64,000 nucleotides of DNA, from positions 1 to 64,000 of the forward strand of contig NZ_QOIL01000016.1 in the NCBI RefSeq assembly GCF_003323745.1, read 5' to 3'. The notes under the pieces were generated by a model. That model did not search any database. It saw nothing but the letters and a program-made list of their open reading frames with translations, and had not been told where the DNA came from. Of this stretch, positions 3,404 to 38,172 are shown piece after piece. Position 1 is the stretch's first letter; each line of letters starts with the position of its first letter. Made by a program: the position numbers and the translations under genes. This stretch comes from Sphaerisporangium album. Its GTDB lineage: Bacteria; Actinomycetota; Actinomycetes; Streptosporangiales; Streptosporangiaceae.

Positions 3404-3468
3404 CTTTGTCCTTATGTGCAGACAATGTTAGCGAGGCCACTCTAACTTTGTCCAGACATCAGGACAAA
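3404..3468. promoter_or_regulatory. Paired TTTGTCC operator-like sites
   Basis: Seen directly: a perfect inverted repeat TTTGTCC (3447-3453) / GGACAAA (3462-3468) with an 8-nt spacer, and a second copy ACTTTGTCC at 3404-3411 followed by GACAA at 3421-3425. The two ACTTTGTCC direct repeats are 42 bp apart, four helical turns. The right site overlaps the last codons and stop of the methyltransferase gene. The region is comparatively AT-rich and sits upstream of the leftward gene at 3383, so it probably holds that gene's promoter and a cooperative dimer-binding operator. The binding protein is unknown. Confidence 0.6.
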
Positions 3469-4730
3469 AATCCGGCGAAATCCACCGCCTCCCCACTCGC
3501 CTCCAACACCGGCACAACCCCCGTCAGGTCCTGCCACCTGCGACAGATCACGTCCACATAGCGCGGATCCAGTTCGACCACGTGCGCCGCACGCCCCGTC
3601 AGATGCGCCGCGACCAACGTCGAACCCGACCCCCCGAACGGCTCGAACACCCGCCCACCCGGTCGGCACGAGTTCTGCAGGCACCGCACGATCAGCCCGG
3701 TCGGCTTCATCGTCGGGTGATCCGCGTTGCGCTGCGGCTTCGCCACCTCGAACACCGTGGTCTGCGCGTTATCGCCGTACCAGCCCTCACCGCCCCGGCC
3801 CAGCCGCCCCTTCCCGCCCGCGGTGAACCCGTACAAGATCGGCTCGTGCTGGTAGTGGTAATCCGCCCGGCCCAGCACCATCTGGTCCTTCGCCCAGATC
3901 AGGTTCTGCCGGACCTTCCACCCCGCCGCGAGCATCGCCGCCTCGAACACCCCGCGGAACACGTCCGGGTGCGCCACGTACACCGGCGACCCCGGCCGCA
4001 GCGCCGCACTCGCCCCCGCGAACGCACCCGCCAGCAGCGCCGGCAACCCCTGCGCACCGTCGTTGCGAATCGTCAGCGCGTCCTTGGTCTTCCCCACGTA
4101 CTCCACGCCGTACGGCGGGTCGGTCCACATGCAGTCCGCCAGCTGCCCGCCCATCACCGACTCGACGACCTCGAGCCGGGTGGAGTCCCCGCACACCAGA
4201 CGGTGCGGCCCCAGCAGCCACACATCGCCCTCCGCCGAGCGCGGCACCTCCGGCAGCGGCGGCGCGTCATCGGGGTCGGTGCGCTGCTCGGGGACGTACA
4301 GCGACGCGATCAGCCCGTCGAAGTACCCCTGGTCGTACCCGGTGCCCGACAGGTCCGGCTGGGCCTGCTTGAGCAGCTCGGCGAGCGCCGCCAGGTCGTA
4401 CCCGGCGACGTCGTTGGCCCGGTTGTCGATCAGCACGATCCGCCGGGCCTTGGACTCGTCGACGTCGACGTAGGTCACCGCGATGTGCGTCCACCCGAGG
4501 TCGCGGGCAGCGCCGACGGTGCCGTTGCCGGCCAGGATCTCGCCGGTGCGCCGGTTGACGACCACGGGCCTGTATTGGCCGTTGCGCTCGAGGCTGTCGC
4601 GGAGCATGTCGTCGTCGTGGGTGCGGGCGTTGCCGGGGAAGTGCCGCAGCTGGTCCAGCGGGACGAGCAGATGGTGCAGGGTCTCGGGCACGTTGTGCCG
4701 TGTCACGTCTCGTCGTGTGTCCTGGGTCAT
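3459..4730 (-). CDS. ParB-like nuclease domain fused to DNA N6/N4 methyltransferase, 423 aa
   Basis: Residues about 20-115 are a ParB-N-like domain (PLDQLRHFPGNARTHDD, then RTGEILAGNGTVGAARDLGW). Residues about 190-410 are a DNA methylase domain with catalytic DPPYGVEY and, later, the AdoMet-binding FEPFGGSGSTLVAA; DPPY before the glycine loop marks the beta-type motif order. HPTMKP precedes the AdoMet loop, as is usual. Such ParB-methyltransferase fusions are common in phages and are thought to protect element DNA; no partner endonuclease is seen here. ATG at 4728-4730 has GGAGGA upstream and overlaps a 30-codon ORF. Target sequence unknown. Confidence 0.9.
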   Translation of the reverse strand: MTQDTRRDVTRHNVPETLHHLLVPLDQLRHFPGNARTHDDDMLRDSLERNGQYRPVVVNRRTGEILAGNGTVGAARDLGWTHIAVTYVDVDESKARRIVLIDNRANDVAGYDLAALAELLKQAQPDLSGTGYDQGYFDGLIASLYVPEQRTDPDDAPPLPEVPRSAEGDVWLLGPHRLVCGDSTRLEVVESVMGGQLADCMWTDPPYGVEYVGKTKDALTIRNDGAQGLPALLAGAFAGASAALRPGSPVYVAHPDVFRGVFEAAMLAAGWKVRQNLIWAKDQMVLGRADYHYQHEPILYGFTAGGKGRLGRGGEGWYGDNAQTTVFEVAKPQRNADHPTMKPTGLIVRCLQNSCRPGGRVFEPFGGSGSTLVAAHLTGRAAHVVELDPRYVDVICRRWQDLTGVVPVLEASGEAVDFAGFLS

Positions 4731-4819
4731 GGGGTCCTCCGAGGGGTGCTGAGCTGGGCGTAGGCCGCGTTGCGCGGGTGGGGGTGTGTCATGGCGGCGA
4801 GGTGGATGGCCGTGGTCAC
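4727..4819 (-). CDS. Small ORF, 30 aa, coupled on both sides
   Basis: GTG at 4817-4819 overlaps the stop of the upstream gene (GTGA) and its own stop overlaps the methyltransferase ATG (ATGA). It reads TTAIHLAAMTHPHPRN and onward, ending PRRTP where the codons double as the methyltransferase ribosome site. It may be a coupling peptide rather than a functional protein. Confidence 0.4.
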   Translation of the reverse strand: MTTAIHLAAMTHPHPRNAAYAQLSTPRRTP

Positions 4820-5286
4820 CGGGCGGCTCCGGCTGTGCCGATGTCCTCGGTGGGGAAGAGCGCGCCCTGGTCGTATCTCGGTATCTGCGGGCCGCTGGGC
4901 CGTACGCCGGTCCGCCACCATTCGGCGTGCGCGCGGGCGGCGGCGCGGGCCCGGTCGGCGGAGGCCTCGGCGGGCCGGCACCGGCCGCTGTGGACGCGGC
5001 CGTTGACCATGCGGCGGCCGGGGTGGGGGCAGCAGCTGCAGAGGGCGGCGCTGCTGCAGGGTGTGCCGTCGGGGTCGAGGCTGCCCCAGTACTCCGCCCA
5101 GGGGCGGCCGTCGTCGGTGGTGCCGGTGAGGATGGTGGCGCCGATGTAGCCCTCGACGACGCCGCGGAAGCCGGTGACGGCGTGGTCGTTGAGGTGGCCC
5201 CCGCGGTGGACGTGCTCGCCGGAGTAGCCGTGCATCTGGACGCGGTCGCCGGCCTTGTAGGGGCAGTGCCTGGGGATCTCACTCAC
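4816..5286 (-). CDS. Hypothetical Cys-containing protein with QGALF motif, 156 aa
   Basis: GTG at 5284-5286 overlaps the upstream gene by 8 bases. The N-terminal half has a small beta domain (YKAGDRVQMHGYSGEHVHRG, a likely SH3-like barrel); the middle carries CSSAALCSCCPHPG, a possible metal site; the C-terminal part is Ala/Arg helical and ends with QGALFPTED. QGALF matches the QxxLF form of beta-clamp-binding peptides, one of several such motifs in this element. No family recognised. Confidence 0.65.
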   Translation of the reverse strand: MSEIPRHCPYKAGDRVQMHGYSGEHVHRGGHLNDHAVTGFRGVVEGYIGATILTGTTDDGRPWAEYWGSLDPDGTPCSSAALCSCCPHPGRRMVNGRVHSGRCRPAEASADRARAAARAHAEWWRTGVRPSGPQIPRYDQGALFPTEDIGTAGAAR

Positions 5287-8710: not shown

Positions 8711-9006
8711 CGGGGCCTCCGGGTGGGGAGCAGCAGCGCGTCGGCTGCGTCGCGGTCGGTGGTGCGGCGCGCGGCGGCCAGGTCGTCCTTGGCGGTCTCC
8801 CGGGCGATCAGTGCGTTCCAGCACTCCAGGCCGGCCAGACCCCAGGCGGCTCGGGCACCGGTGACCGGCGCGCCGACCGGGGTGGCACGGCGGATGCGGT
8901 CGTACGCGGCGGTGGCGGTGTCCAGGCGGTTGCGGGCGTCGACGAGCTCACGGTCAGCCTGATCGAAGGTGTCCTGGGCGGCGCGCAGGTCGGCGGATAG
9001 ATCCAT
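8707..9006 (-). CDS. Hypothetical coiled-coil protein, 99 aa
   Basis: ATG at 9004-9006 in a TGATG overlap with the stop of the initiator-like gene. Heptad-like helical sequence (ADLRAAQDTFDQADRELVDA, then RNRLDTATAAYDRIRR) suggests a coiled coil of about 40 residues. Direct coupling to the initiator gene suggests a role in the replication module, as an inference from position only. Confidence 0.6.
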   Translation of the reverse strand: MDLSADLRAAQDTFDQADRELVDARNRLDTATAAYDRIRRATPVGAPVTGARAAWGLAGLECWNALIARETAKDDLAAARRTTDRDAADALLLPTRRPR

Positions 9007-10256
9007 CAGGCGCTCCCGGCGGGGTCGAGTTGGTCGGGGGTGACGCCGAGCTGGTCGAGGCCGCGGGTGAACGCCTCCAGGTCCTCGGGGGTCGGGACCC
9101 GGAAGGCGGTGGCAGGGTCGACGCAGCAGAACGACGGGCCGGTGGGGTCGCCGCCGCAGCGCGGGCAGGTGGTGCCGAGGGCGACGTCGCGGCCGAGGCG
9201 TTGCAGGGCGCCGCGGAGTTCGGGGATGTGCTGGTGGTCGGCGTAGGTGCGTTCGGCGATGACCTGGTGGGCGTACTGGAGGATGACCTCGCGGGCGAAC
9301 CCGGCCTCGAGGGCGTGGGTGGCGAGGGCGATGAGGTGTTTGCGGACCCAGGCGGGGGCGGCGCGGTAGCGGGGGGTGGCCGCGATGATGCCTCGGGCGG
9401 TGAGGTTGTCGGGTTGCGCCGTAGGCGCTGTCGCGGTCGTGCGCGCGGTACGGACCGTTAGCTCGCCTACGGCGAGAACCCCAGATTCGTACTCTTCTCG
9501 TACTCCTGACGTACTCCTTACGTACTCTGCCGCAACGGTTGCGGTTGAGATCCGCTGTGGTTGCGGTTCACTTCCGCAACGGTTGCGGTTGAGATCCGCT
9601 GTGGTTGCGGTTGAACGCGTTCGAATCTCGGGGTTATCCACAGGGTCGAACCGCAATGGTTGCGGTTGATCGGGAGGGTTATCCACAGACGTGAACCGCA
9701 ACGGTTGCGGTTCACTGTCGGTCTCCGCCTCATCCTCCAACCGCAACGGTTGCGGTTCAGGGGTCTCCTCGTGCTCGATGCACGGCCCCTCGCCCTGATG
9801 CTTGGTCCCCCGCCCCGCGCGCTTCTTGCACGCGCCACCCTTGCTCGTCGGCCGCCCGCACAGCTTCACCTCAACCTTGCCTGGCGCCTGGGCGATGACG
9901 TCCTCCGTCGGCCACGCCAGCCGGAACGTCGGGTAGCGTCGCGCCCCGCGGGTAACCAGCCAGCCCTCGTCCATCAGCTGGTGCACCGAGGCGATGGCGG
10001 TGTTCTCCGCCATGTTCAGCTCCGTGGCCAGCGACTTGTACCCCGGGTTGGCCTCCTTGTGGTCCTTGCCAACCGTGTACACGTAGAGCCGCTGCGCGAT
10101 GTTGTAGCGCGAAGAGTCGAGCCCTGTGCGCTTGTAGAAGAGCAGCATCCACACAAGCGCCCGGTTCAACTTGAGCTGCCCAGGGCTCAGATACCGGTGC
10201 GCCCATGCCGGGACGTCGGTCTCATCGATGGCCGCGCCCCGCGCCTGTCCGCTCAC
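9006..10256 (-). CDS. Winged-helix replication initiator-like protein, 416 aa, with the origin inside its gene
   Basis: Residues about 20-115 are a helix-turn-helix/winged-helix domain (LVWMLLFYKRTGLDSSRY, then NPGYKSLATELNMAENTAI and VHQLMDEGWLVTRG). Residues about 165-250 are a low-complexity linker with repeated PQPLRF/L peptides, which is the translation of the palindromic iterons in the DNA. The C-terminal part (about 275-400) is helical and carries CPRCGGDPTGPSFCC, a zinc site. Placing DNA repeats within the initiator gene parallels lambda O. GTG at 10254-10256 lacks a strong ribosome site. Divergent from a ribbon-helix-helix gene with shared palindromic operators. Initiator function is inferred from domain plus embedded origin. 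Confidence 0.75.
   Translation of the reverse strand: MSGQARGAAIDETDVPAWAHRYLSPGQLKLNRALVWMLLFYKRTGLDSSRYNIAQRLYVYTVGKDHKEANPGYKSLATELNMAENTAIASVHQLMDEGWLVTRGARRYPTFRLAWPTEDVIAQAPGKVEVKLCGRPTSKGGACKKRAGRGTKHQGEGPCIEHEETPEPQPLRLEDEAETDSEPQPLRFTSVDNPPDQPQPLRFDPVDNPEIRTRSTATTADLNRNRCGSEPQPQRISTATVAAEYVRSTSGVREEYESGVLAVGELTVRTARTTATAPTAQPDNLTARGIIAATPRYRAAPAWVRKHLIALATHALEAGFAREVILQYAHQVIAERTYADHQHIPELRGALQRLGRDVALGTTCPRCGGDPTGPSFCCVDPATAFRVPTPEDLEAFTRGLDQLGVTPDQLDPAGSA
9488..9531 (+). repeat. Four tandem 11-bp repeats beginning CGTACTC
   Basis: CGTACTC occurs at 9488, 9499, 9510 and 9521, exactly 11 bases apart, with variable last four bases (TTCT, CTGA, CTTA, TGCC after the shared core minus its end). 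Helical phasing on one DNA face is expected. Probable part of the origin. Confidence 0.75.
9530..9757. repeat. Seven iterons with core CCGCAACGGTTGCGG
   Basis: Copies start at about 9530, 9552, 9574, 9596, 9651, 9696 and 9741. The first four are exactly 22 bp apart; the second and fourth are a variant (CCGCTGTGGTTGCGGTT). Each is a 7-bp inverted repeat about a single central base; the copy at 9691-9715 extends to perfect 12-bp arms (GTGAACCGCAAC and complement). The regular 22-bp spacing (two helical turns) and palindromy suggest dimer binding sites for the initiator. Confidence 0.85.
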
Positions 10257-11139: not shown

Positions 11140-11397
11140 TCACGTTTCCCCCTGACCATCGATGAGGAGGACCAGGCCGTCGGCGAGGAGCACGGAGCCG
11201 CCGAGGGTGACGTGCATGCGGGCGGCATCGGCCGCAGCGGCAGGGGTGAAGCCAGCGTCGACGAGGCGGCCCATGAGGTCGCGGACGCGGCTCTCGATGA
11301 CAGGCCATTCACGGGGGTGGCCGGTGCCCCCGTTGTCGATGGGGCGGAGCCAGCCGCGGCGGATCCAGTGGTCAATCTGGCGGTAGCTCGGGGTCAC
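11140..11397 (-). CDS. MerR-like HTH protein, 85 aa
   Basis: The first 35 residues (PSYRQIDHWIRRGWLRP, then GGTGHPREWP) have the helix-turn-helix plus wing of MerR/BldC-like DNA-binding proteins, with the GGTGHPREW wing typical of actinomycete and phage versions. The rest is helical and hydrophobic without an effector domain. GTG at 11395-11397 has GAGGTGG upstream and overlaps the stop of the methyltransferase-like gene. Probable transcription factor or excisionase-like protein. Confidence 0.75.
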   Translation of the reverse strand: MTPSYRQIDHWIRRGWLRPIDNGGTGHPREWPVIESRVRDLMGRLVDAGFTPAAAADAARMHVTLGGSVLLADGLVLLIDGQGET

Positions 11398-12026
11398 AGC
11401 GGCCACCTCGCGAGCAGCTTGGCGGGCAGCTGGTTGCGGAAGGTGTCGCCTAAGACGATGTTGTCGTCCATGAACGTGATCGGCCGGATGCCGCCGATCT
11501 CCAGCCAGCACACCGACTTGGCCAGGTCGATGGCCACGGCGTCCAGGTCGGTCCCGTAGAGGCATTCGCTCATGACCTGGGCCGTGACTGCCTGGATGAG
11601 GAAGTCCGGGACGTGCGGTGGCGGGTCGGCCTGGGTGATGCACCACTCGGTGAGATGGCGCGCGGTGTGGATCAAGAAGATGCCGGGGCCGCAGAACGGG
11701 TCGTGGATGGTGATGTGGGCGAGCGGCCGCGGGTGGCCGGCGAGCCGGTTGAGGTTGGCGGCCTGGAGCGCGGCGGGCACTTGGAAGTCGACGACCTCGG
11801 GCGGGGTGTAGATGACGCCGTCCCGGGCGCGCCGACGGGGGGCGAGGAGGCGCTGCCGTAGTTCGCCGAGCTCGACGATGCCCCACTGGGAGAAGTCGGC
11901 GTCGGTGAGCCATGAGGGCAGCTCGGCGTCGGCACCCGGCCAGGGCGCGGCCAGGCCGCGGGCGCCGGCGATGCGGTTAATGACCGTGCGCGCGACGAGT
12001 TGGTCGTGGGCGAGTAGGGCGGTCAT
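11394..12026 (-). CDS. N6-adenine methyltransferase-like protein, no NPPY motif, 210 aa
   Basis: GVIYTPPEVVDFQV is the Q/YTPxxVV motif that precedes AdoMet-binding in type I-like N6 methylases; HDPFCGPGIFLIHTARHL is motif I and YGTDLDAVAIDLAKSVCWLE is motif II-III. The protein ends soon after and lacks the catalytic [DN]PP[YF] motif IV and target-recognition domain. It may bind AdoMet without methylating alone, or may act with the similar protein encoded upstream. ATG at 12024-12026 with GGAGG upstream. Confidence 0.7.
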   Translation of the reverse strand: MTALLAHDQLVARTVINRIAGARGLAAPWPGADAELPSWLTDADFSQWGIVELGELRQRLLAPRRRARDGVIYTPPEVVDFQVPAALQAANLNRLAGHPRPLAHITIHDPFCGPGIFLIHTARHLTEWCITQADPPPHVPDFLIQAVTAQVMSECLYGTDLDAVAIDLAKSVCWLEIGGIRPITFMDDNIVLGDTFRNQLPAKLLARWPL

Positions 12027-12172
12027 CGTGGCCTCCTGGCCCAGCGGATGGCGATGAGCGGCACGGGGCACACGTAGATGGCGTCCGGGCCGATGTAGAC
12101 GCCGATCCAGGCGTCGCGTGGCTCGAACCAGAGGGTGAGGCGTCCGGCGGCCGCCAGGCGGGTCTTGGTCAT
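12023..12172 (-). CDS. Small conserved phage-type protein, 49 aa
   Basis: LTLWFEPRDAWIGVYIGPDA followed by IYVCPVPLIAIRW: a compact beta-rich protein with aromatic residues seen in the early regions of actinophages. ATGA overlaps on both sides show tight coupling. No biochemical role is known to me. Confidence 0.65.
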   Translation of the reverse strand: MTKTRLAAAGRLTLWFEPRDAWIGVYIGPDAIYVCPVPLIAIRWARRPR

Positions 12173-12552
12173 GACGCGGCCTCGAACAGGTCGAACGGCG
12201 GAAGCTGAACGTTCTCCACGGGCCGCGGATGGGCGGCTTCCACCCGGTCCGCGTGCGCTTGGATGATCAGGGCGCTCTGGGCCAGGGCGTTCGCTTCGCC
12301 GTGAAGGCGGCGTTGCTCGCGCTGCGCGGCCATGATGTCCTGCCACCCCACGGCGGCGAGGACCGCCGCGTCGGCCTGTACGGCCTGCACGCGGACTTCC
12401 TGTGCTCGATGCAGGAGCTCCGCGGCCTTGGTCCGCTCACCGTTGAGCCAGTCGGGGAGCTGGTCGGGGTGGGCGCAGGCGAGGCAGTCCGGGTCGTTGT
12501 GCCGCGCGGGCGGCTTCGGCGGGCGGCCGTTGGGCTGCGGCGTGGTCGTCAT
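12169..12552 (-). CDS. Hypothetical helical protein with C-terminal FDLF tail, 127 aa
   Basis: N-terminus holds a HNDPDCLACAHPD segment, a likely half zinc site; residues about 45-105 form a long Ala/Gln-rich helix (probable coiled coil). It ends LPPFDLFEAAS, nearly the same tail as the next gene (QQPDLFGAAS). The DLF element with a preceding Gln resembles a beta-clamp-binding peptide. ATGA overlaps on both sides. Confidence 0.65.
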   Translation of the reverse strand: MTTTPQPNGRPPKPPARHNDPDCLACAHPDQLPDWLNGERTKAAELLHRAQEVRVQAVQADAAVLAAVGWQDIMAAQREQRRLHGEANALAQSALIIQAHADRVEAAHPRPVENVQLPPFDLFEAAS

Positions 12553-13646
12553 GAGGCCGCTCCGAACAGGTCGGGCTGCTGGGGGGCGGTGACGACGACC
12601 ACGGGCGGGGCAGGCTCGTGGTCGTGGCCGAGGTTGGCGATAGCGGCCAGGCCGGGGTGAAGGCGGGCGTGCTCCTGGCGGCTGATGCGGCCGGCGAGCA
12701 GGGAGTCCCCGACGGCGATCCGCGGGCGGATGGGCGGGATCCGGTCCAGGCGCAGGACGGGGATCAGGCTGGAGCGGTGCATGAGCTCGCCGATGGTGAC
12801 GACGCAACGGAGGCGGGCGACGGAGGCGGTGAGCGGGTCGATCTCGCAGCCGTGGACGCCGGCGAGGATGCGGCGGATCGCCTCGGCTGGCGGGTACACC
12901 GGGCCGCCGGTGATGCCCTTCACCTTCATCTGGCGGGCCGCCAGGCCGCCCGTGGTGTACCACTCCCAGAGGAAGTCGATCATTCGGACGAGGAAGTGGC
13001 CGGTGCCGCAGGTCGGGTCGACGGTGTGGAGCGTCTGGCCGGTGAACTCGGCGGCGGCCGGGAGCAGGGTGAGGTCGAGGATGCCGTCGGCGATCCACCA
13101 TGGCGTCTGGGCGTTGCCGCCGCCTCCGCCGTGCGGCCGAGGGTCGCGCAGGTGCTGGAGGATGTCGCCGGCCAGCCACCCGGAGATGCTCAGGGGCCCG
13201 CTGGTGGCCTCGTAGGCGAGCGGCGGCGCCTCGTCGGCCCACCAGTGGATCAGGTCCAGGCACGCGTCGTCGGTGGGCGTGTGGTCGTGCAGGGCGCTGT
13301 AGCGGCCGTCCAGGAGGCAGCGTGTGGCGGGGTGGGCGGCGGCGAGGCGGTTGATGGCGGCCGCGACCCAGCCGCGAGGACCGCCGGCGCGGTCGAGGAC
13401 CTCGCGGCGGAGCTCGGGGGTGATGGTGCGCAGGAACGGATCGATCAGGTGATGGTCCTCGGCCCAGGCGACGAGCACGGTGCAGTAGACCCACGCGACC
13501 GCGGCCGGGCGGACTTCGGCGAGCCGGCCGCTGGAGGCCTTGGCGCCGGCCATCGACGCGGCGAAGACTTCGACGTGCTGGCGCAGGGCGCGGATCAGGG
13601 GCCGGGTGAAGGTGTTGTCGTCGACGGGGTTCGAGGGGTTGGTCAT
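12549..13646 (-). CDS. N6 methylase-like protein lacking a clear catalytic motif, 365 aa
   Basis: N-terminal helical region (about 1-190) followed by a methylase-like core: HTVDPTCGTGHFLVRMIDFL (motif I), HGCEIDPLTASVARLRC (motif II) and RIAVGDSLL (motif III region). A catalytic NPPY/F is not seen, although the C-terminal 60 residues follow directly. The tail QQPDLFGAAS fits the beta-clamp-binding consensus. It resembles a shortened PglX/type I HsdM-like subunit; role may be DNA binding or AdoMet sensing. ATG 13644-13646, ATGA overlap. Confidence 0.7.
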   Translation of the reverse strand: MTNPSNPVDDNTFTRPLIRALRQHVEVFAASMAGAKASSGRLAEVRPAAVAWVYCTVLVAWAEDHHLIDPFLRTITPELRREVLDRAGGPRGWVAAAINRLAAAHPATRCLLDGRYSALHDHTPTDDACLDLIHWWADEAPPLAYEATSGPLSISGWLAGDILQHLRDPRPHGGGGGNAQTPWWIADGILDLTLLPAAAEFTGQTLHTVDPTCGTGHFLVRMIDFLWEWYTTGGLAARQMKVKGITGGPVYPPAEAIRRILAGVHGCEIDPLTASVARLRCVVTIGELMHRSSLIPVLRLDRIPPIRPRIAVGDSLLAGRISRQEHARLHPGLAAIANLGHDHEPAPPVVVVTAPQQPDLFGAAS

Positions 13647-16727: not shown

Positions 16728-16944
16728 GGATGCTCGCCTCCTTCACCGCGCGGCGGGCCCGGCGCAGCGAGGCCGCGAAGGAGTTCCAGTTCCGCGGCTG
16801 TGTGCGCTCGGCGCGGTAGAGCTGCTTGCGGATCTTCGTAGGCACCAGGTTCCAGTGGCCTTTGCACATCAGGTGGCGCAGGGGAATCTTGGTCAGGCAG
16901 TCGATCGCGGCGCAGCGGTGAGTGCCTGTGGGCTGCTCGGCCAT
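16720..16944 (-). CDS. Small zinc-site protein, 74 aa
   Basis: HRCAAIDCLTKIPLRHLMCKGHWNLVP has a C-x4-C...C-x2-H pattern, likely a single zinc knuckle, followed by a very basic tail. HW-x-LVP after the knuckle recurs in actinophage proteins. ATG at 16942-16944, TGATG overlap with the kinase-phosphatase gene. Probably nucleic-acid binding. Confidence 0.65.
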   Translation of the reverse strand: MAEQPTGTHRCAAIDCLTKIPLRHLMCKGHWNLVPTKIRKQLYRAERTQPRNWNSFAASLRRARRAVKEASIRA

Positions 16945-17846
16945 CAGAAATCACCATCCGCGACCTGAAGTACGGTCAGGCCCATGGCGCGCCAGGCGCT
17001 CACGACCTGACGTCGGTCGTCCAGAACGCACGCGACGTCGTAGTGGTCGCGCACGTGGGCGTCGAACAGTTCGGCCTTGACCAGGTAGTCGGGGCGGTGG
17101 TCGCCGATCTTGCGCATGTGCAGGCCCGCGATCGGCATGCCCAGGTGCCGCTCGAGCCACCGGGCAGTGCCCTGCCGGCAGGCTTCGGTGCGGCCGGACA
17201 TGACCACGATCTGGTGGCCGGCCGCGTGCAGCGCGCGGACGACGTTAATGACCGGAGTGTTGGGGAGATCCTCGTGGACGAGGGTCTCGTCATAGGGGGA
17301 GCGGCCGTTCATCAGCGCGGTGGTGCCGTCGACGTCGACCAGTGCCGCGCGGGGCGTGCCCGGCTTGGGCTCGTAGGGGCGCAGCGCGGCCGCGTCCGGG
17401 TCCTCGGGGATGGGGAGCGGCAGGTCGCGGCCGTGCAGGTGGCTGGCGTGCATGCTGCGGATGACCTGCTCGCCGACCGGGCGCTCACGCGCGGCGTCCC
17501 GCGCGATGCACTCTTTCAACGGGACGCGGGTGAAATCGCGCACCGCGAAGTCGGCGCCCGCCCGGCGGGCGAGTTTCATCAGGTCGCGTACGACCCGCTG
17601 AGGCAGGTTGGTGTCGTCGCACACCACCTCCACGCCCTTGCGGAGCAACGCGGCGATCGTGGCGTTGCGGGCCACGATGATGCGGGGTTCGGTCAGGCCG
17701 CTGATGAAGGTGCCGTTGTGCATCATCGACCGCAGGTCGTCCCGGTTCACGCGGGCCCGGGCGCCGGGGTCTTCGGCCACCCACCCTGCCGCCCAGGTGG
17801 TCTTCCCGCTTCCCGGAAGGCCGCGGGTGATGGTGAGGGTGCTCAT
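16944..17846 (-). CDS. Polynucleotide 5'-kinase / 3'-phosphatase (T4 Pnkp-like), 300 aa
   Basis: N-terminal kinase with P-loop GLPGSGKT (9-16), the NRDDLR segment after it, and CDDTNLPQRVV (about 77-87). C-terminal HAD-type phosphatase with DVDGT at 171-175 and later VMSGRTEACR and CVLDDRRQVV. Domain order and length (T4 Pnkp has 301 residues) match T4 Pnkp, which converts 2',3'-cyclic phosphate/3'-phosphate and 5'-OH ends to 3'-OH and 5'-phosphate. It overlaps the RNA ligase gene (ATGA), making a two-step RNA repair pair. Start ATG 17844-17846. Confidence 0.92.
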   Translation of the reverse strand: MSTLTITRGLPGSGKTTWAAGWVAEDPGARARVNRDDLRSMMHNGTFISGLTEPRIIVARNATIAALLRKGVEVVCDDTNLPQRVVRDLMKLARRAGADFAVRDFTRVPLKECIARDAARERPVGEQVIRSMHASHLHGRDLPLPIPEDPDAAALRPYEPKPGTPRAALVDVDGTTALMNGRSPYDETLVHEDLPNTPVINVVRALHAAGHQIVVMSGRTEACRQGTARWLERHLGMPIAGLHMRKIGDHRPDYLVKAELFDAHVRDHYDVACVLDDRRQVVSAWRAMGLTVLQVADGDF

Positions 17847-19039
17847 GCGACCGCCTCGGACCGGGCACCCCAAGGCTTCTCCGCCGGCGGGTAGATCAGC
17901 TTCCAGACGTTGGTGGTGATGTCGCGCCTGTCGCGCAGCAGGAACAGCTCACCGAAGTGGTCGCGCTGCAGGGCGTCTGCGGCGAAGGCCTTGCGGTCGT
18001 CGCCGTACAGGGCCTCCAGTTCCCGGGCCGTCGCGGTGAGCTGCTTGTGGAGGTCGGTGGCCTGGGCGCGCAGGCGGCTGATCGTGGTGCGGATCCAGGT
18101 GTGGAACTCGTCGGGGACACCTTCGATGAGGTGGTGCTCCCAGTCCGGGCCCATGGCGAGGATGGCGGTCGCGCGCTCGGGGTCCAGGCCGATGCGTGAT
18201 CCCCAGTGCTTGGGCACCGTGATGAGGTGCTTGCAGGCGTCGACGGCGCAGAACTCCCACACGTTGCGGGCGGAGGTGCGGGTGACGATGGCGTGGAGGC
18301 GGACGTAGTCCTCCTGTTTGATCTTGACCATGTGGCCGGTGTCGAGCTGGCGGACGACCAGGCCCTCGGCGCCCGGGCGGGGCGGCATGGCCAGGGCGTC
18401 GGCCAGGGTCGGCAGGTTGAACACCGTGGCGGCGGGCCCCGGCCAGCCGGGGATCTCGTCCGGGCCGAGCACCCGGCCGGAGCGGATCTCCACGCCACCG
18501 AGGAGGAACAGGTCGTCGGCGCCGCCGTAGTCGCAGACGATCCGGTTGGCCGGGTAGACGATCTCGAATAGCACCGTCACGCCGGGCGGCGGGGTGAACG
18601 CCGCGGCGTAGCGGGCCCGGTACAGGGCGGTGGCATGGAGGGCCTGCTCGCTGGTGAACGAGCCGCGGGTGGCGACCTCGTAACCGGTCGAGGTGGGCAC
18701 GAGGATGCCAAGGCTTCCGTCGAGCTTGTCCAGCACCTGGGCCGGCGCCGAGAGGTTCAGCTCGTCGGCGAGCGGCTCGCCGTGGTTGAAGAACTTCTCA
18801 TACGGACGGGCGATGACAGCACCGTGGTCGTCGACGACCAGGCCGCGGCACTGCTGGGTAACGGAGGTCCACGCCTGCTCGTAGATGGTCTTCTCGGTGT
18901 AGTTGAAGATCCGCAAAGCCTCGGCCGGGTGGCGCTGCTCGCGGACCAGGCCCTGCTCGACGGCGTCCTCGAGGGAGGAGAGCTTGACCAGATCCCAGAT
19001 GTGCAGGTGGTCGAGTCTCGGATCGAACGTCGGTGTCAT
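17843..19039 (-). CDS. T4 Rnl1-like RNA ligase, 398 aa
   Basis: Nucleotidyltransferase motif I KLDGSLG with adenylated Lys105, motif III-like VLFEIVYPANRIV (about 156-168), motif IV EGLVVR (225-230), motif V MVKIKQEDYV (237-246), and the YEKFFN element typical of Rnl1. The C-terminal helical half corresponds to the tRNA-specificity domain. Together with the downstream kinase-phosphatase it can seal broken RNA, as T4 does after PrrC cuts tRNA-Lys. Start ATG 19037-19039; a TTG at 19058-19060 adds seven residues. No strong ribosome site for either. Confidence 0.9.
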   Translation of the reverse strand: MTPTFDPRLDHLHIWDLVKLSSLEDAVEQGLVREQRHPAEALRIFNYTEKTIYEQAWTSVTQQCRGLVVDDHGAVIARPYEKFFNHGEPLADELNLSAPAQVLDKLDGSLGILVPTSTGYEVATRGSFTSEQALHATALYRARYAAAFTPPPGVTVLFEIVYPANRIVCDYGGADDLFLLGGVEIRSGRVLGPDEIPGWPGPAATVFNLPTLADALAMPPRPGAEGLVVRQLDTGHMVKIKQEDYVRLHAIVTRTSARNVWEFCAVDACKHLITVPKHWGSRIGLDPERATAILAMGPDWEHHLIEGVPDEFHTWIRTTISRLRAQATDLHKQLTATARELEALYGDDRKAFAADALQRDHFGELFLLRDRRDITTNVWKLIYPPAEKPWGARSEAVA

Positions 19040-19095
19040 TGCCGTGGAGGTGTTGCTCAATTCGATATCCAGTTCGCTTGGAGGGGGGTGCCGAG

Positions 19096-19120
19096 CCCCG
19101 GCCCCTGATCGGGGCCCGGC
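19096..19120 (-). terminator. GC hairpin after the glutathionylspermidine-synthase-like gene
   Basis: An imperfect GCCCCGGCCCC / GGGGCCCGGC hairpin lies in the 86-bp gap between the stop at 19126 and the RNA ligase start. No U-run. It probably reduces read-through between the two cassettes. Confidence 0.4.
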
Positions 19121-19125
19121 GAAGA

Positions 19126-20280
19126 TCAGCTGTCGATGAGGTGAGGGACGAAGGAGGAGGTGTTGCCGGTGATCAGGCCGGAGGTCTCCCGGATACCGAG
19201 GCCGGCGGACTCGTCGCCGATGACCCACGAGCCGAGGACCGGCCGCCTGCCCTCGAAGTCCGGGAGCGGCCAGAATTCCTGGTAGACGTAGCCCTCGGCG
19301 CCGTAGTCACCCGGCATGGTGGTCGTTTCGCTGGCCTGGACGATGCGGATCGAGGCGCCTTCTCGGCCGAGGAGCGGCTTGGCCACGTACGCGGCGAGGT
19401 CCCGCGGGCCGTCCAGATGGGCCGGCAGCAGGTTCGGATGGCCGGGGTACATGTCCCACAGCACCGCGAGCAGCGCCTTGTTGGACAGCAGCATCTTCCA
19501 CAGTGGCTCGACCCACGGCGTGCGCGCCTGCCGTTCGATGGCCAGGGCGGCGAACGACTCGGTGACCAGCCACTCCCACGGATACAGCTTGAACAGTCGC
19601 CGTATCTTCTGGCCCTGCAGGTCGACGAACCGCCGTTGGCCGGAGTCCCAGCCGATGTCCTCGATGGCGAGGAGCCGGGTCGGGAGACCCGCCTGGGCAG
19701 CGGTCTCCATCATGTAGGCGGCGTTGAGGGCGTCTTCACCTGCTTCCTCGTCGCGGGTGAACGCGAAGTGGATGCCGGCGCCGGGCGCGGAAATGTGCAG
19801 CCATCGGTCGATCAGCTTCTCGTGGAGAGAGTTCCACTGGTCGCAGGCCGGATGGACGTCTTCCTTCCAGTGCCACTGGATCACCGAGCTCTCCACCAGG
19901 CTGGTGGGGGTGTCGGCGTTGTACTCCAGCAGCTTGGCGTGCCCAGCGCCGTCGTAGCACAGGTCGAACCGGCCGAACAGGTGCGGGTCGCGGCGCTTCC
20001 ACGACTGGCGGATCGGCTCGTGCAACCAGTCCGCGATCCTGAAGTCGGCGTACCGCTCACGAGTGATGACGTGGTCGACGGCCTCCAGGCACATGCCGTG
20101 GAGGTCCTCGGTGACGCGCTCGAGCTCCAGGATCTCGGGCATGGTGAACGCGTAGTACACGGACTCGTCCCAGTAGGGCCGGCCATCCTCGCCTTGCGGT
20201 ACGTTTCCATGAAAGCCCAGTCCCTGGGCCTCGATGGTCTTCTGCCAGTCGGGTCGGCGATCGCTGAGCAGGCGGCGCAT
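19126..20280 (-). CDS. Glutathionylspermidine synthase-like ATP-grasp protein (YgiC/YjfC family), 384 aa
   Basis: ATP-grasp C-N ligase of the GSP_synth family: HAKLLEYNADTPTSLVES (about 110-127), WKEDVHPACDQWNSLH, KPLLGREGASIRIV (about 305), EGYVYQEFWPLPDF (about 335) and GDESAGLGIRE near the end are the conserved family segments. Length equals stand-alone YgiC (about 386); the amidase domain of E. coli Gsp is absent. The true substrate of YgiC-type enzymes is unknown. Encoded next to a YgiB-like lipoprotein and small membrane proteins, mirroring yjfL-yjfM-yjfC. TGATG overlap with the lipoprotein gene. Confidence 0.9.
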   Translation of the reverse strand: MRRLLSDRRPDWQKTIEAQGLGFHGNVPQGEDGRPYWDESVYYAFTMPEILELERVTEDLHGMCLEAVDHVITRERYADFRIADWLHEPIRQSWKRRDPHLFGRFDLCYDGAGHAKLLEYNADTPTSLVESSVIQWHWKEDVHPACDQWNSLHEKLIDRWLHISAPGAGIHFAFTRDEEAGEDALNAAYMMETAAQAGLPTRLLAIEDIGWDSGQRRFVDLQGQKIRRLFKLYPWEWLVTESFAALAIERQARTPWVEPLWKMLLSNKALLAVLWDMYPGHPNLLPAHLDGPRDLAAYVAKPLLGREGASIRIVQASETTTMPGDYGAEGYVYQEFWPLPDFEGRRPVLGSWVIGDESAGLGIRETSGLITGNTSSFVPHLIDS

Positions 20281-20669
20281 CAGGACCCGCTCCCGCTGAC
20301 GGAACCGCGGCTGCCGAACCCGCCACGGCTGACGGTGCCTTTGCCGGCGTTGGACAGTACGGTTCGGCCGGATCGGGAGGCGATGTTGGTGTTCGGCGGC
20401 TTGGTGTAGGACCCGCCGTAGACGTGCCCGTTGGAGTAGCTGCCGCCGTAGATCCAGACGAACGAGCTGGTGCTGTGCCCGCCCCCTCCGCCGCTGTTGC
20501 TGCAGTACTTGTCGTCGACGGCCTTGAGCTTGCCGTCGGCCTCGCGGATGACGCAGTCGGCCGCGACGGTGGGGCCGTCGTCGTCGGAGCACGCCGTGAC
20601 CATGGCGAGTGACAGCGCGCCGAGGGCGACCAGGGTGATGGCGGTGGACGCCTTTCTGGGAGTTTGCAT
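20280..20669 (-). CDS. YgiB-like lipoprotein, Gly/Ser-rich, 129 aa
   Basis: Signal peptide with lipobox VTAC (lipidation at Cys27), then DDDGPTVAADCVIREADGKL and DKYC, followed by a Gly/Ser/Tyr repeat region (IYGGSYSNGHVYGGSYTK) and a basic Ser/Gly tail. This layout resembles the YgiB/DUF1190 partner that accompanies YgiC genes. ATG at 20667-20669, preceded by the 26-codon membrane-peptide gene. It would be anchored on the outer face of the membrane. Possible role: substrate or scaffold for the ATP-grasp enzyme (inference). Confidence 0.8.
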   Translation of the reverse strand: MQTPRKASTAITLVALGALSLAMVTACSDDDGPTVAADCVIREADGKLKAVDDKYCSNSGGGGGHSTSSFVWIYGGSYSNGHVYGGSYTKPPNTNIASRSGRTVLSNAGKGTVSRGGFGSRGSVSGSGS

Positions 20670-36624: not shown

Positions 36625-38172
36625 ATGCCCCCCCAACAGCGCACAATCGCCAGCGGCGAACTGATTCCCGCCATCGGCTACATACGCGTCTCGATGCTCA
36701 TGGAAGAGCAGATCTCCCCGGAGATCCAACGCGCCGCCATCACCGACTGGGCCCGCCGCAACGGCCGGCGAATCGTGCGATGGATCGAAGATCTTGACGC
36801 CACAGGCCGCAACTTCCGTCGCAAGATCATGAAGGCGATCGAAGGTATCGAATCAGGCGACGCCCGCGAGATCATCGTCTGGAAATTCAACCGCTTCGGC
36901 CGCAACCGCACCGGCAACGCCGTCAACCTCGGCCGCGTGAACCTCGCCGGCGGTGAACTCCAATCAGCCACCGAAGACGTTGACGCCCGCACCGCCGTCG
37001 GGCGACTGACCCGCGGCATGCTCATGGAGATCGCGTCCTTCGAAAGCGACCGCATCGGCGAGCAATGGGCCGAGACTCACGCCTACCGCGTCGCCAGCGG
37101 ACTCCCGGCCAACGGCCGCCCCCGATTCGGGTACGTTCTCCGCGGCCGCCAGCCCGACCCCCTCCACGCGCACCGGACCCTCCGAGCTCCCGACGACGGC
37201 CCCGAGCGGTATGAGCCAGATCCCATTACCGGGCCGGTCCTGGCGGACCTCTACCGGCGATACATCGCCGGCACCGGCGGTCAAAAACTCGCCGCCTACC
37301 TCAACCAGACAGGCTTGCGCACCACTCGCGGCAACCACTGGTCCGATGTAGCCATAAGGGGCATGCTCGACCGCGGCTTCGGCGCCGGCCTGCTGCGCAT
37401 CCACGACCCCAACTGTGAATGCAACCAGCCCGCCAACTGCAGCAACATGACCCTCATCAAGGGCGCTCACCAACCTGTGATCAGCGAGGAAGAGTGGCAG
37501 GCATACCGCCGCCGGCGACTCCGCGTTGCCGCCACCCCACCCCGCGCCCGTGCCTCGATCTACCCCCTGGCAGCCTCCTTGCGTTGCGGCCACTGCGGCA
37601 GCCGGATGACGCCCTGCGCGGAAGGCCCCGAGCCGGCCGTCCGGTACCTCTGCAGCGGCTACCTACGAAAGCGCACGTGTCTTGCTCGAAGCGCACGACG
37701 GAGCGCCATCGAGGCCATCGTGGTGCGCGAGCTCGCCCAGTGGGCCGACGACATCGCCGCCGAGGCGCCCGTCGCCAATGAGCCATCCCAGGCCACAATC
37801 CAGCCCGAGCGCGCCAAGCTCGAGGCCGAGGTCGCCGCCGCTGACGCCGCCATGGACGCACTGACCTTGAAAATGGCTAAAGGGATCATCCCCGAGGACT
37901 CCTACATCCGAGCCAGGGACGTGCTCCTGACCGAGCGGGCCGTGGCTGCGGCAGCTCTGGAGGAGGACGATCGACCGGCGCCGCTGCAACGGCACGAGTA
38001 CGTGCCAGTGATCCGGACAGTGGTGGAGGAATGGCTGACGCTTCGCCCCGAAGCACGGCGAGAGATGGTCGCTGATCTGCTGCCGGAGATTCTGATCTTT
38101 CGCGAGTCGCGCAGGTCGGCATGGGTGACGTTGCGCGCGGCATGGGGCGAGGAGCGGACCTTCCCCATTTAG
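36625..38172 (+). CDS. int: Large serine integrase, 515 aa
   Basis: Resolvase domain (about 14-165) with IGYIRVS (nucleophile Ser23), ESGDAREIIVWKFNRFGRN and MLMEIASFESDRIGEQWAET; recombinase domain (about 180-290, GRPRFGYVLRG and DLYRRYIAGTGGQKLAAYLN); zinc ribbon LRCGHCGSRMTPC...YLCSG...TC (about 318-355); coiled coil about 385-440. This is the large serine recombinase architecture that integrates phages at attB. ATG 36625, GAGAG upstream. Its stop abuts the host junction, the usual position of int next to attP. Confidence 0.95.
   Translation: MPPQQRTIASGELIPAIGYIRVSMLMEEQISPEIQRAAITDWARRNGRRIVRWIEDLDATGRNFRRKIMKAIEGIESGDAREIIVWKFNRFGRNRTGNAVNLGRVNLAGGELQSATEDVDARTAVGRLTRGMLMEIASFESDRIGEQWAETHAYRVASGLPANGRPRFGYVLRGRQPDPLHAHRTLRAPDDGPERYEPDPITGPVLADLYRRYIAGTGGQKLAAYLNQTGLRTTRGNHWSDVAIRGMLDRGFGAGLLRIHDPNCECNQPANCSNMTLIKGAHQPVISEEEWQAYRRRRLRVAATPPRARASIYPLAASLRCGHCGSRMTPCAEGPEPAVRYLCSGYLRKRTCLARSARRSAIEAIVVRELAQWADDIAAEAPVANEPSQATIQPERAKLEAEVAAADAAMDALTLKMAKGIIPEDSYIRARDVLLTERAVAAAALEEDDRPAPLQRHEYVPVIRTVVEEWLTLRPEARREMVADLLPEILIFRESRRSAWVTLRAAWGEERTFPI

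Follow-up and report, generated by a model that had tools for sequence, protein, structure and literature searches.

Organization of an initiator-like gene in Sphaerisporangium album

We analyzed a stretch of 64,000 nucleotides (nt) from Sphaerisporangium album (contig NZ_QOIL01000016.1), hereafter called the window, whose first base is also the first base of the contig. The gene studied here lies on the minus strand of the window (9006..10256) and is an open reading frame (ORF) with homologues in other genomes. It starts with GTG, encodes an initiator-like protein of 416 amino acids, and carries within its coding sequence several kinds of DNA repeats and a conserved pair of mini-hairpins that make it a candidate replication origin.

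The domain organization of the protein was investigated with an AlphaFold2 model (mean, 67.9; predicted template modeling score, 0.37) built on 8 sequences. An N-terminal winged-helix domain was predicted at residues about 17-122 (9891..10208, minus strand). The winged-helix assignment made in the initial annotation was thereby borne out as a prediction. The top Foldseek matches of this domain in the PDB were MarR/ArsR-type winged-helix regulators, none of them significant (best expectation value [E], 0.13), and Pfam HTH_36 matched it with an E of 0.05, under the cut-off. A helical C-terminal domain, delimited by AlphaFold2 and alignments at residues about 283-402 (9051..9410, minus strand), is common to all 31 loci described below and was modeled with block means of at least 90 across residues 291-360. 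Residues 167-281 had a predicted local distance difference test score below 50, i.e., they were predicted to be disordered. In Pfam and PHROG searches, the window protein matched none of the families with a score worth considering; this includes the Rep families of Pfam and the O-like PHROG, and we detected no sequence homology to the lambda O family.

Seven iterons, 15-mers of the form CCGC-N7-GCGG with no strand assigned, were found at 9530..9755 (starts 9530, 9552, 9574, 9596, 9651, 9696, and 9741), the first four exactly 22 bp apart. Their number and spacing agreed with the initial annotation, which was slightly generous in calling all of them palindromic: four are perfect CCGCAACGGTTGCGG palindromes, the one at 9651 has one change, and those at 9552 and 9596 (CCGCTGTGGTTGCGG) have a degenerate half. 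Elsewhere in the 9.3-Mb genome of the strain, allowing at most one mismatch, we observed one stray 1-mismatch copy, compared to 4 matches for a reversed-pattern control. Two copies of TTATCCACA, a DnaA-box-like sequence, are located on the plus strand in the same orientation (9634..9642 and 9679..9687). They are the only copies on this contig, with 39 in the whole genome. Since both lie within a unit repeated at 45 bp, a single duplication may explain them. The boxes adjoin the iterons, as in DnaA-dependent iteron plasmid origins of the pSC101 and P1 type, in which the iterons lie outside the gene and not inside it as here. Four CGTACTC repeats, 11 bp apart and likewise without assigned strand, follow at 9488..9527 (starts 9488, 9499, 9510, and 9521); the plus strand of the window holds 11 copies in all. 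They sit in a tract that is purine rich on the gene strand (purine fraction, 0.70), between the iterons and the hairpin H1 described below. The 54-nt tract beside the iterons has a GC fraction of 0.54, versus 0.59 for the linker; the difference is clearer in many relatives (e.g., 0.31 versus 0.57 in locus L031). Boxes and 11-bp repeats were both found as initially annotated, and all of the repeats lie within the coding sequence.

The linker encodes the peptide PQPLRL/PQPLRF/PQPLRF/PQPQRI. A PQPLRF/L repeat had been noted there before; it is present as described and is limited to iteron copies that share a frame, namely, the last three iterons, which yield PQPLR. The first four iterons occupy frames 1, 0, 2, and 1, and the CGTACTC copies occupy frames 0, 1, 2, and 0. 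Because the copies spaced at 22 bp and 11 bp thus occupy all three reading frames, the repeated unit is the DNA and not the peptide. In the 270 nt upstream of H1 (the window locus being L009), we counted 99 direct and 25 inverted repeated 9-mers, compared to means of 6.1 and 1.7 after synonymous-codon resampling, and neither count was reached in any of 300 resamples. A peptide repeat as the cause was ruled out by the frame analysis together with the synonymous nulls.

In-gene repeats in relatives of the gene

The window protein matched 5 of 99 other genomes, one match being judged spurious, and had no match among phage and plasmid records. A search with an alignment of the C-terminal domain gave matches in 25 of 341 genomes of the family (own genome included; two weak), 10 of 121 drawn from the order, and 6 of 394 drawn from the class, where the sole match outside the Streptosporangiaceae was weak and partial. 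Viral contigs contributed three matches, one of which duplicates a genome locus, plus one more from a pattern scan. After removal of duplicates, the final set consisted of 31 loci with a domain start, 28 in Streptosporangiaceae genomes and 3 in viral contigs only. We dropped L014 (MocR-type) and L043, both judged spurious, and L042 (partial, no domain start), and the family hit G350:C49, for which there was no locus, was left out. L039, which carries a duplication, was omitted from the wobble table and the pair alignment, and L025 (stop in the linker) and L036 (too short) were omitted from the linker test.

While the C-terminal domain is common to the 31 loci, their N-terminal domains differ, and single-linkage BLAST clustering separated them into four classes and two loci with truncated N-terminal parts. 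Iteron motifs were defined for the classes by eye ahead of counting. In the HTH_36-like class (15 loci), the repeats are of the type GACGGR-NNN-YCCGTC, with 5 to 8 matches in six loci and just 1 or 2 in nine. In the DnaD-like class (6 loci), five have CCGCA-NNN-TGCGG and L018 has CCGCTCACAGCGG. Two of the four loci of the RIRTIKPE class carry CTCGGCGG/CCGCCGAG and the other two GACGAGTC; in addition, six loci of the HTH_36-like class have one CTCGGCGG/CCGCCGAG match each. Palindromes with a CAACCGTTG core characterize the class of the window (4 loci) and are likewise present in L025, whose N-terminal part is truncated. In the homologues of the window class, the CAACCGTTG core or a near form is retained and the two arms vary jointly (CCG..CGG, CTC..GAG, and CCC..GGG). 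These relatives come from Microbispora corallina, Planobispora (now Paraplanobispora) siamensis, and Nonomuraea thailandensis, the latter two of which belong to the Streptosporangiaceae. Across the 31 loci, the iteron type largely tracks the N-terminal class.

Repeats exceeding the synonymous null (p<=0.01) were observed in 19 of 29 testable linkers and in 3 of 31 C-terminal bodies; when a locus's own codons were permuted, the numbers were 21 of 29 and 2 of 31. The initial annotation had asked for iterons conserved in relatives and had regarded intact homologues that lack repeats but replicate normally as evidence against an origin. We found that in-gene repeats are a family trait, present in most of the testable homologues, and that the repeat sequence is not conserved and varies by N-terminal class. 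Six homologues with other N-terminal domains were searched for known families. Five gave matches to PHROG families for replication initiation, with E values between 3.5e-6 and 3.6e-50; the match of the sixth was weak. Matches to the O-like PHROG were obtained only for the proteins of L017, L018, and L035 (E, 3.1e-5 to 0.17).

The purine fraction of the tract next to the iterons was at least 0.63 in 28 of the 31 loci. The window-class homologues have degenerate copies of the CGTACTC repeat, and 11-bp repeats were seen, by eye, in this N-terminal class only. They were ruled out as a universal feature, the other classes carrying other purine-rich tracts or 8-bp GGAACAGG arrays. Such an 8-bp array is located at 1675-1702 in L010 and at 1612-1651 in L011, and it was also seen in Mycobacterium and Gordonia phage initiator genes (L086-L088).

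A conserved pair of mini-hairpins precedes the C-terminal domain

The most conserved DNA signal of the gene is an element of about 60 nt (9416-9476), which lies just outside the interval 9488..9757 that had been annotated as the origin and was absent from that annotation. It contains two mini-hairpins. H1, CTCGCC-GTA-GGCGAG on the gene strand (9462..9476, minus strand), folds as single-stranded DNA with -6.1 kcal/mol. H2, GCGCC-GTA-GGCGC on the strand opposite the gene (9416..9428, plus strand), is situated 47 nt from H1 and folds with -5.9 kcal/mol. The whole element, with H1, CCGTA-CGCGCG, H2, and flanks (9406..9485, minus strand), scored 86.4 bits with our covariance model R1, of which the window sequence is itself part. 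The stretch 9400-9490 is nearly symmetric, and the model also matches its own reverse strand there (E, 3.2e-5).

All 31 loci have an inverted repeat directly before the C-terminal domain with the loop GNA on the gene strand (GTA in 21, GCA in 8, and GAA in 2). A second hairpin with the loop TNC, equivalent to C-GNA-G on the other strand, follows 38 to 86 nt further on, again in 31 of 31 loci. The distance between the two is 44 or 47 nt in 29 loci, 38 nt in L018, and 86 nt in L039, in which an in-frame tandem duplication (39 bp) of the H1-bearing stretch was observed. Upon synonymous resampling, the GNA loop appeared in a mean of 1.6 (maximum, 7) and the TNC loop in a mean of 2.3 (maximum, 8) of 31 loci; the H1 stem had 177 of 186 pairs formed (null, 124 +/- 5; maximum, 144) and the H2 stem 136 of 155 (null, 77 +/- 4; maximum, 94), in a comparison which fixes H1 at the best stem found, applies window codon usage to all loci, and somewhat favors the stem count and, less so, the loop count.

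The caveat on the position of H1 does not touch the wobble table, which was compiled from 30 loci with a median amino-acid identity of 37%. In this table, the choices GNA, CGT, and CCT show no exception among the 30 loci. Wobble choices ending in A or T are fixed in 29 or 30 loci solely inside the element (columns 2, 5, 11, and 20). Beyond it, conserved wobble positions mostly have the generally preferred C or G or are mixed, with A in 25 of 30 loci at column 25, just past H2. The codons GTA, GCA, and CCT are 4-8% choices in the genes of the window.

Moreover, the H1 stem showed compensating changes. Four of its six pairs are changed on both sides, and its covariation score of 0.121 was reached in 0 of 500 shuffles; slid controls scored at most 0.036, far below this value, and their fraction of paired cells was also far lower. 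Among 11 distinct H1 sequences, 59 of 66 pairs form, compared to 48.2 with the right arms shuffled (permutation p, 5e-5). The amino acids encoded at the H1 stem vary in stem-keeping pairs (L-E, P-G, T-G, R-A, and L-Q) in 26 of 31 loci. Since the residues encoded by H1 and H2 (261-265 and 277-281) are predicted by AlphaFold2 to be disordered, protein structure does not readily explain the conservation.

GNA and GNNA loops closed by G-C pairs are described as extraordinarily stable DNA mini-hairpins in the excerpted text of PMC4686876. In sequence, the H1 loops follow this rule (GNA or GNNA with at least two closing G-C pairs) with GNA in 31 of 31 loci, their stability being predicted from the rule. 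Long-range pairing of H1 with H2 was considered as the main structure and rejected, its support being lower than that for the local hairpins. Searches of one open-licence library gave no description of the hairpin pair in print.

In 338 genomes, the covariance model gave 29 hits of at least 69 bits, all of them loci of this gene family and nearly all members of the model itself, followed by a gap down to 48 bits. At an E of <=0.01, it matched in 122 of the 338 genomes; below the 29 strong hits, the places examined were L102, L103, and L134-L138. A relaxed 32-bp pattern with at most 3 mismatches was found in 65 of 338 genomes, and most of the 3-mismatch hits look like noise because the reversed control also matches many genomes. 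Two 2-mismatch hits, L102 and L103, lie outside the family. In L102, a remnant of the element is fused to the end of a transposase-like ORF (around 2628). No initiator-like ORF was recognized in L134, L136, and L137, the first two of which may represent decayed remnants. When viral contigs were scanned with three patterns, three contigs were retrieved in total, each an already counted member or L085.

A like hairpin pair in genes with another C-terminal domain

Among the weak hits, L103, L135, and L138 proved to be initiator-like genes whose C-terminal domain is a different one; they led to the Streptomyces phages ZL12 and TurkishDelight. A search with the ZL12 protein (gp082) found a relative in 72 plasmid records, 67 of them from Streptomyces. 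We sampled the 2 phages and 14 of the 72 plasmids, 13 of which matched through the C-terminal part of ZL12 gp082 and one, L154, through the N-terminal part only. Comparison of the two C-terminal domains by hhalign (probability, 9.5%; E, 0.0034) suggests that they are related remotely at best.

A GNA...TNC pair was present in 9 of the 16 genes when a distance of 38 to 50 nt was allowed (null mean, 0.04; maximum, 2) and in 12 of 19 when GNNA/TNNC loops, 36 to 50 nt, and three genes from genomes of the family were included (null mean, 0.09; maximum, 1), both the limit and its extension having been set after inspection of the data. In the 9 genes of the first count, the pair occupies reading frame (1, 0), versus (0, 2) in the window family, and comprises five kinds of H1 stem. 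Nine of the 12 genes with a pair have an extra GNA hairpin upstream of H1 with freely varying stems (L139, L141, L142, L144-L146, and L148-L150, from Streptomyces plasmids and phages). The distance is 18 nt in eight of them and 17 nt in the ninth; this is an observed count with no null attached. Palindromic direct repeats, mostly 21 to 23 bp apart, were found in all five genes examined for them. In the Streptomyces reticuli plasmid, whose gene lacks the pair, the next gene is of the dnaB type; in pSAM1, where the pair is present, one gene intervenes before a dnaB-type gene.

Prophage context

A serine recombinase, likely a prophage integrase, is encoded at 36625..38172 (plus strand; Pfam Resolvase and Recombinase). 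Further genes encode two RusA-like resolvases, a RecE-like exonuclease, an exonuclease-domain protein, a polynucleotide kinase, an RNA ligase, and a ParB-like methyltransferase. This gene content, examined at the window locus only among the 31 loci, points to a prophage, possibly one that lacks its left part. We also observed an RNA-repair-like cluster at 16944-20592, made up of the polynucleotide kinase, a T4-type RNA ligase, and a glutathionylspermidine-synthase-like gene. At 3459-5282, a ParB-like domain is fused to an N6/N4 DNA methyltransferase. Two adjacent ORFs at 11394-13646 match parts of the PglX methyltransferase of bacteriophage exclusion (BREX) systems under the curated cut-offs, possibly representing a broken or trimmed gene.

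A putative in-gene origin with strand-specific hairpins

The region likely serves an integrated actinophage as its origin of replication, located lambda-O style inside the coding sequence of the phage's own initiator and carrying a strand-specific hairpin module. An in-gene origin in an initiator-like gene, as initially proposed, appears to be the best-supported reading, five of the six relatives searched matching replication-initiation families and the iteron type largely tracking the N-terminal class. What the sequences show are the repeats, their independence of frame, the association of iterons with N-terminal classes, the hairpin pair with its compensating H1 changes, and its recurrence in another frame and with another C-terminal domain; from these we infer binding, melting, and a role for the hairpins, as follows. 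The modeled winged-helix domain would bind the palindromic iterons, probably as dimers, and DnaA may assist at the two boxes in this clade. Melting would extend through the purine-rich tract into the adjoining conserved element, where a C-GNA-G mini-hairpin of extraordinary stability could become exposed on each separated strand (H1 on the gene strand, H2 on the opposite one). Each hairpin might then mark the start of the replisome on its strand, be it primase, helicase, or an RNA polymerase making a primer, and the helical C-terminal domain could recruit replication proteins. That the hairpins are strand-initiation sites, for priming or helicase entry, seems to us nearly as probable as not.

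Several observations weigh against this interpretation. We scanned 35 ORFs of the window with one or more libraries and recognized no primase or helicase; the same 35 ORFs yielded no RepB'-type primase, and those scanned yielded no P-like helicase loader, the contig being cut at base 1, so that genes may be missing. Only 3 of 31 loci have any DnaA box within the 320 nt preceding H1, by which such boxes were ruled out as a core feature, and 10 of the 29 linkers missed p<=0.01 for repeats. In 5 of the 31 loci (L022, L031, L046, L047, and L051), the outer pairs of H1 do not form, and one control, slid by +3, has 5 doubly changed pairs versus 4 for H1. No pair of the H2 stem is changed on both sides among the aligned loci: four pairs are invariant, and the outermost is unpaired in 16 of 28. 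In the window copy, H1 can also pair with H2, a weaker but possible alternative fold. No H2 was found near H1 in L103 and L135. Finally, scans for three-base loops found no GNA/TNC pair in the initiator genes of the mycobacteriophages Charlie and Rebel and the Gordonia phage Matteo, the 3 records matched among 467 phage records. Since these three phages and 7 of the 19 genes with the other C-terminal domain lack the pair, it appears to be common but not required.

The iterons could instead constitute an operator or partition site, serving autoregulation, incompatibility, or ParB-type binding, with the protein as a regulator. The MarR/ArsR-type top fold matches, non-significant as they are, and the ParB-like domain encoded at 3459-5282 would fit such a role. 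However, a separate ParB would not explain iterons that largely change with the N-terminal domain, five of the six homologues with other N-terminal domains match replication-initiation families, and relatives of the family with the other C-terminal domain reside on plasmids, where 2 of the 14 fetched have a dnaB-type gene adjacent or near. We therefore regard this explanation as unlikely.

Taken by themselves, the hairpins could be messenger RNA (mRNA) structures involved in translational pausing between domains, mRNA stability, or attenuation, which would be compatible with an in-gene origin. Indeed, they fold as RNA with -8.7 and -8.6 kcal/mol and separate two predicted folded domains. Yet the GNA/GNNA loop with G-C closing is, in the excerpt of PMC4686876, a rule for DNA mini-hairpins. 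H2 follows this rule on the noncoding strand, which an mRNA structure leaves unexplained, and the pair is kept across different reading frames, so that we find an mRNA function improbable.

Very unlikely, in our view, is a cruciform used in recombination or resolution, for instance by RusA-like resolvases, and coupled to recombination-dependent replication, which again would concern the hairpins only. Two RusA-like genes and the RecE-like gene are at hand in the window, where H1 and H2 are able to pair together, but the local hairpins have better support than this long-range pairing, which is disrupted in L050 although H1 is retained there. Within what was examined, moreover, every gene seen to carry the pair was initiator-like and had linker repeats, the L102 remnant excepted. 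Hardly credible, finally, is a protein motif (LAVGELTVRTAR..APTAQP) with hairpins as by-products of codon bias: the motif is recognizable across an alignment of 14 and the residues in the middle of the stem (A, G, P, A) hardly vary, but this is already contradicted by synonymous resampling, which did not reproduce loops and stems, by the fixed unusual wobble choices, by the stem-keeping pairs of amino-acid changes, by the predicted disorder of the residues, and by similar hairpins in another frame.

Returning to an in-gene origin, we tentatively propose, with somewhat more doubt than confidence, that these loci represent an undescribed class of actinobacterial origins, combining an exchangeable iteron module with a host-facing array of extraordinarily stable GNA/GNNA mini-hairpins that supercoiling would extrude as strand-specific sites of replisome entry or priming. 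In such a class, the iterons would travel with the DNA-binding domain, and one hairpin would face each strand, often accompanied in Streptomyces plasmids by a further hairpin 18 nt upstream. Lambdoid phages are known to have origins inside a gene; at the loci studied here, comparison of relatives tells DNA signal and protein apart: two amino acids change jointly, apparently to keep a DNA stem paired. Should the hairpins act as sites of strand initiation, actinobacterial phages and theta-type plasmids would use a mechanism that is, to our knowledge, limited to RSF1010-like and single-stranded replicons. If true, the loop rule could also serve as a search term for origins in unannotated mobile elements, and the proposal would account for the repetitive, poorly alignable linkers of these initiators.

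Comparison with known systems

As in lambda O/ori, the iteron array at our locus lies inside the coding sequence of an initiator. According to the excerpted text of PMC7466680, the ori of lambdoid phages (lambda and Shiga toxin [Stx] phages) is located in the middle of the initiator gene O, with inverted-repeat iterons beside an AT-rich region, and extra iterons lengthen the O protein of Stx phages (13 residues). The same excerpt makes no mention for lambda of a GNA-loop hairpin pair with one hairpin per strand, as observed here (PMC7466680). Also unlike lambda, the window locus has 7 iterons with 22-bp and 45-bp spacing, and DnaA boxes occur in its clade.

The IncQ plasmid RSF1010 carries iterons beside its single-strand initiation (ssi) sites. 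Its oriV has one hairpin-type site per strand, ssiA and ssiB, as described in the excerpt of PMC4434180. The position of H1 and H2 on opposite strands is similar, in anatomy only; here, unlike in RSF1010, the hairpins are others, the site is inside the initiator gene, and no RepB'-type primase was recognized.

The promoters of the N4 virion RNA polymerase are C-GNA-G hairpins, whose closing pair, loop G, and loop A are required for extrusion under negative supercoiling; extrusion takes place at physiological supercoiling, and single-stranded DNA-binding protein melts the non-template hairpin and spares the one on the template strand (excerpt of PMC4496689). The element described here shares the C-GNA-G hairpins but differs in having two that face opposite strands and no such polymerase recognized, and those of N4 are promoters.

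The Streptomyces theta plasmids pFP1, pFP11, and pWTY27 have a rep gene and iterons bound by Rep, according to the excerpt of PMC3583192. In-gene iterons may already have been described for pZL12 or pFP1. As at our locus, GNA hairpins lie within the coding sequence in ZL12, pCQ4, and pSAM1, whereas the window family has another C-terminal domain, other iterons, and another reading frame. The initiators of Charlie, Rebel, and Matteo resemble that of L011 in their N-terminal domain and linker and have GGAACAGG linker repeats; the match covers 65-80% of L011, and their C-terminal sequence is not fully alignable with the window family. For mycobacteriophage RepA, an origin upstream of or within repA has been suggested (excerpt of PMC7157519).

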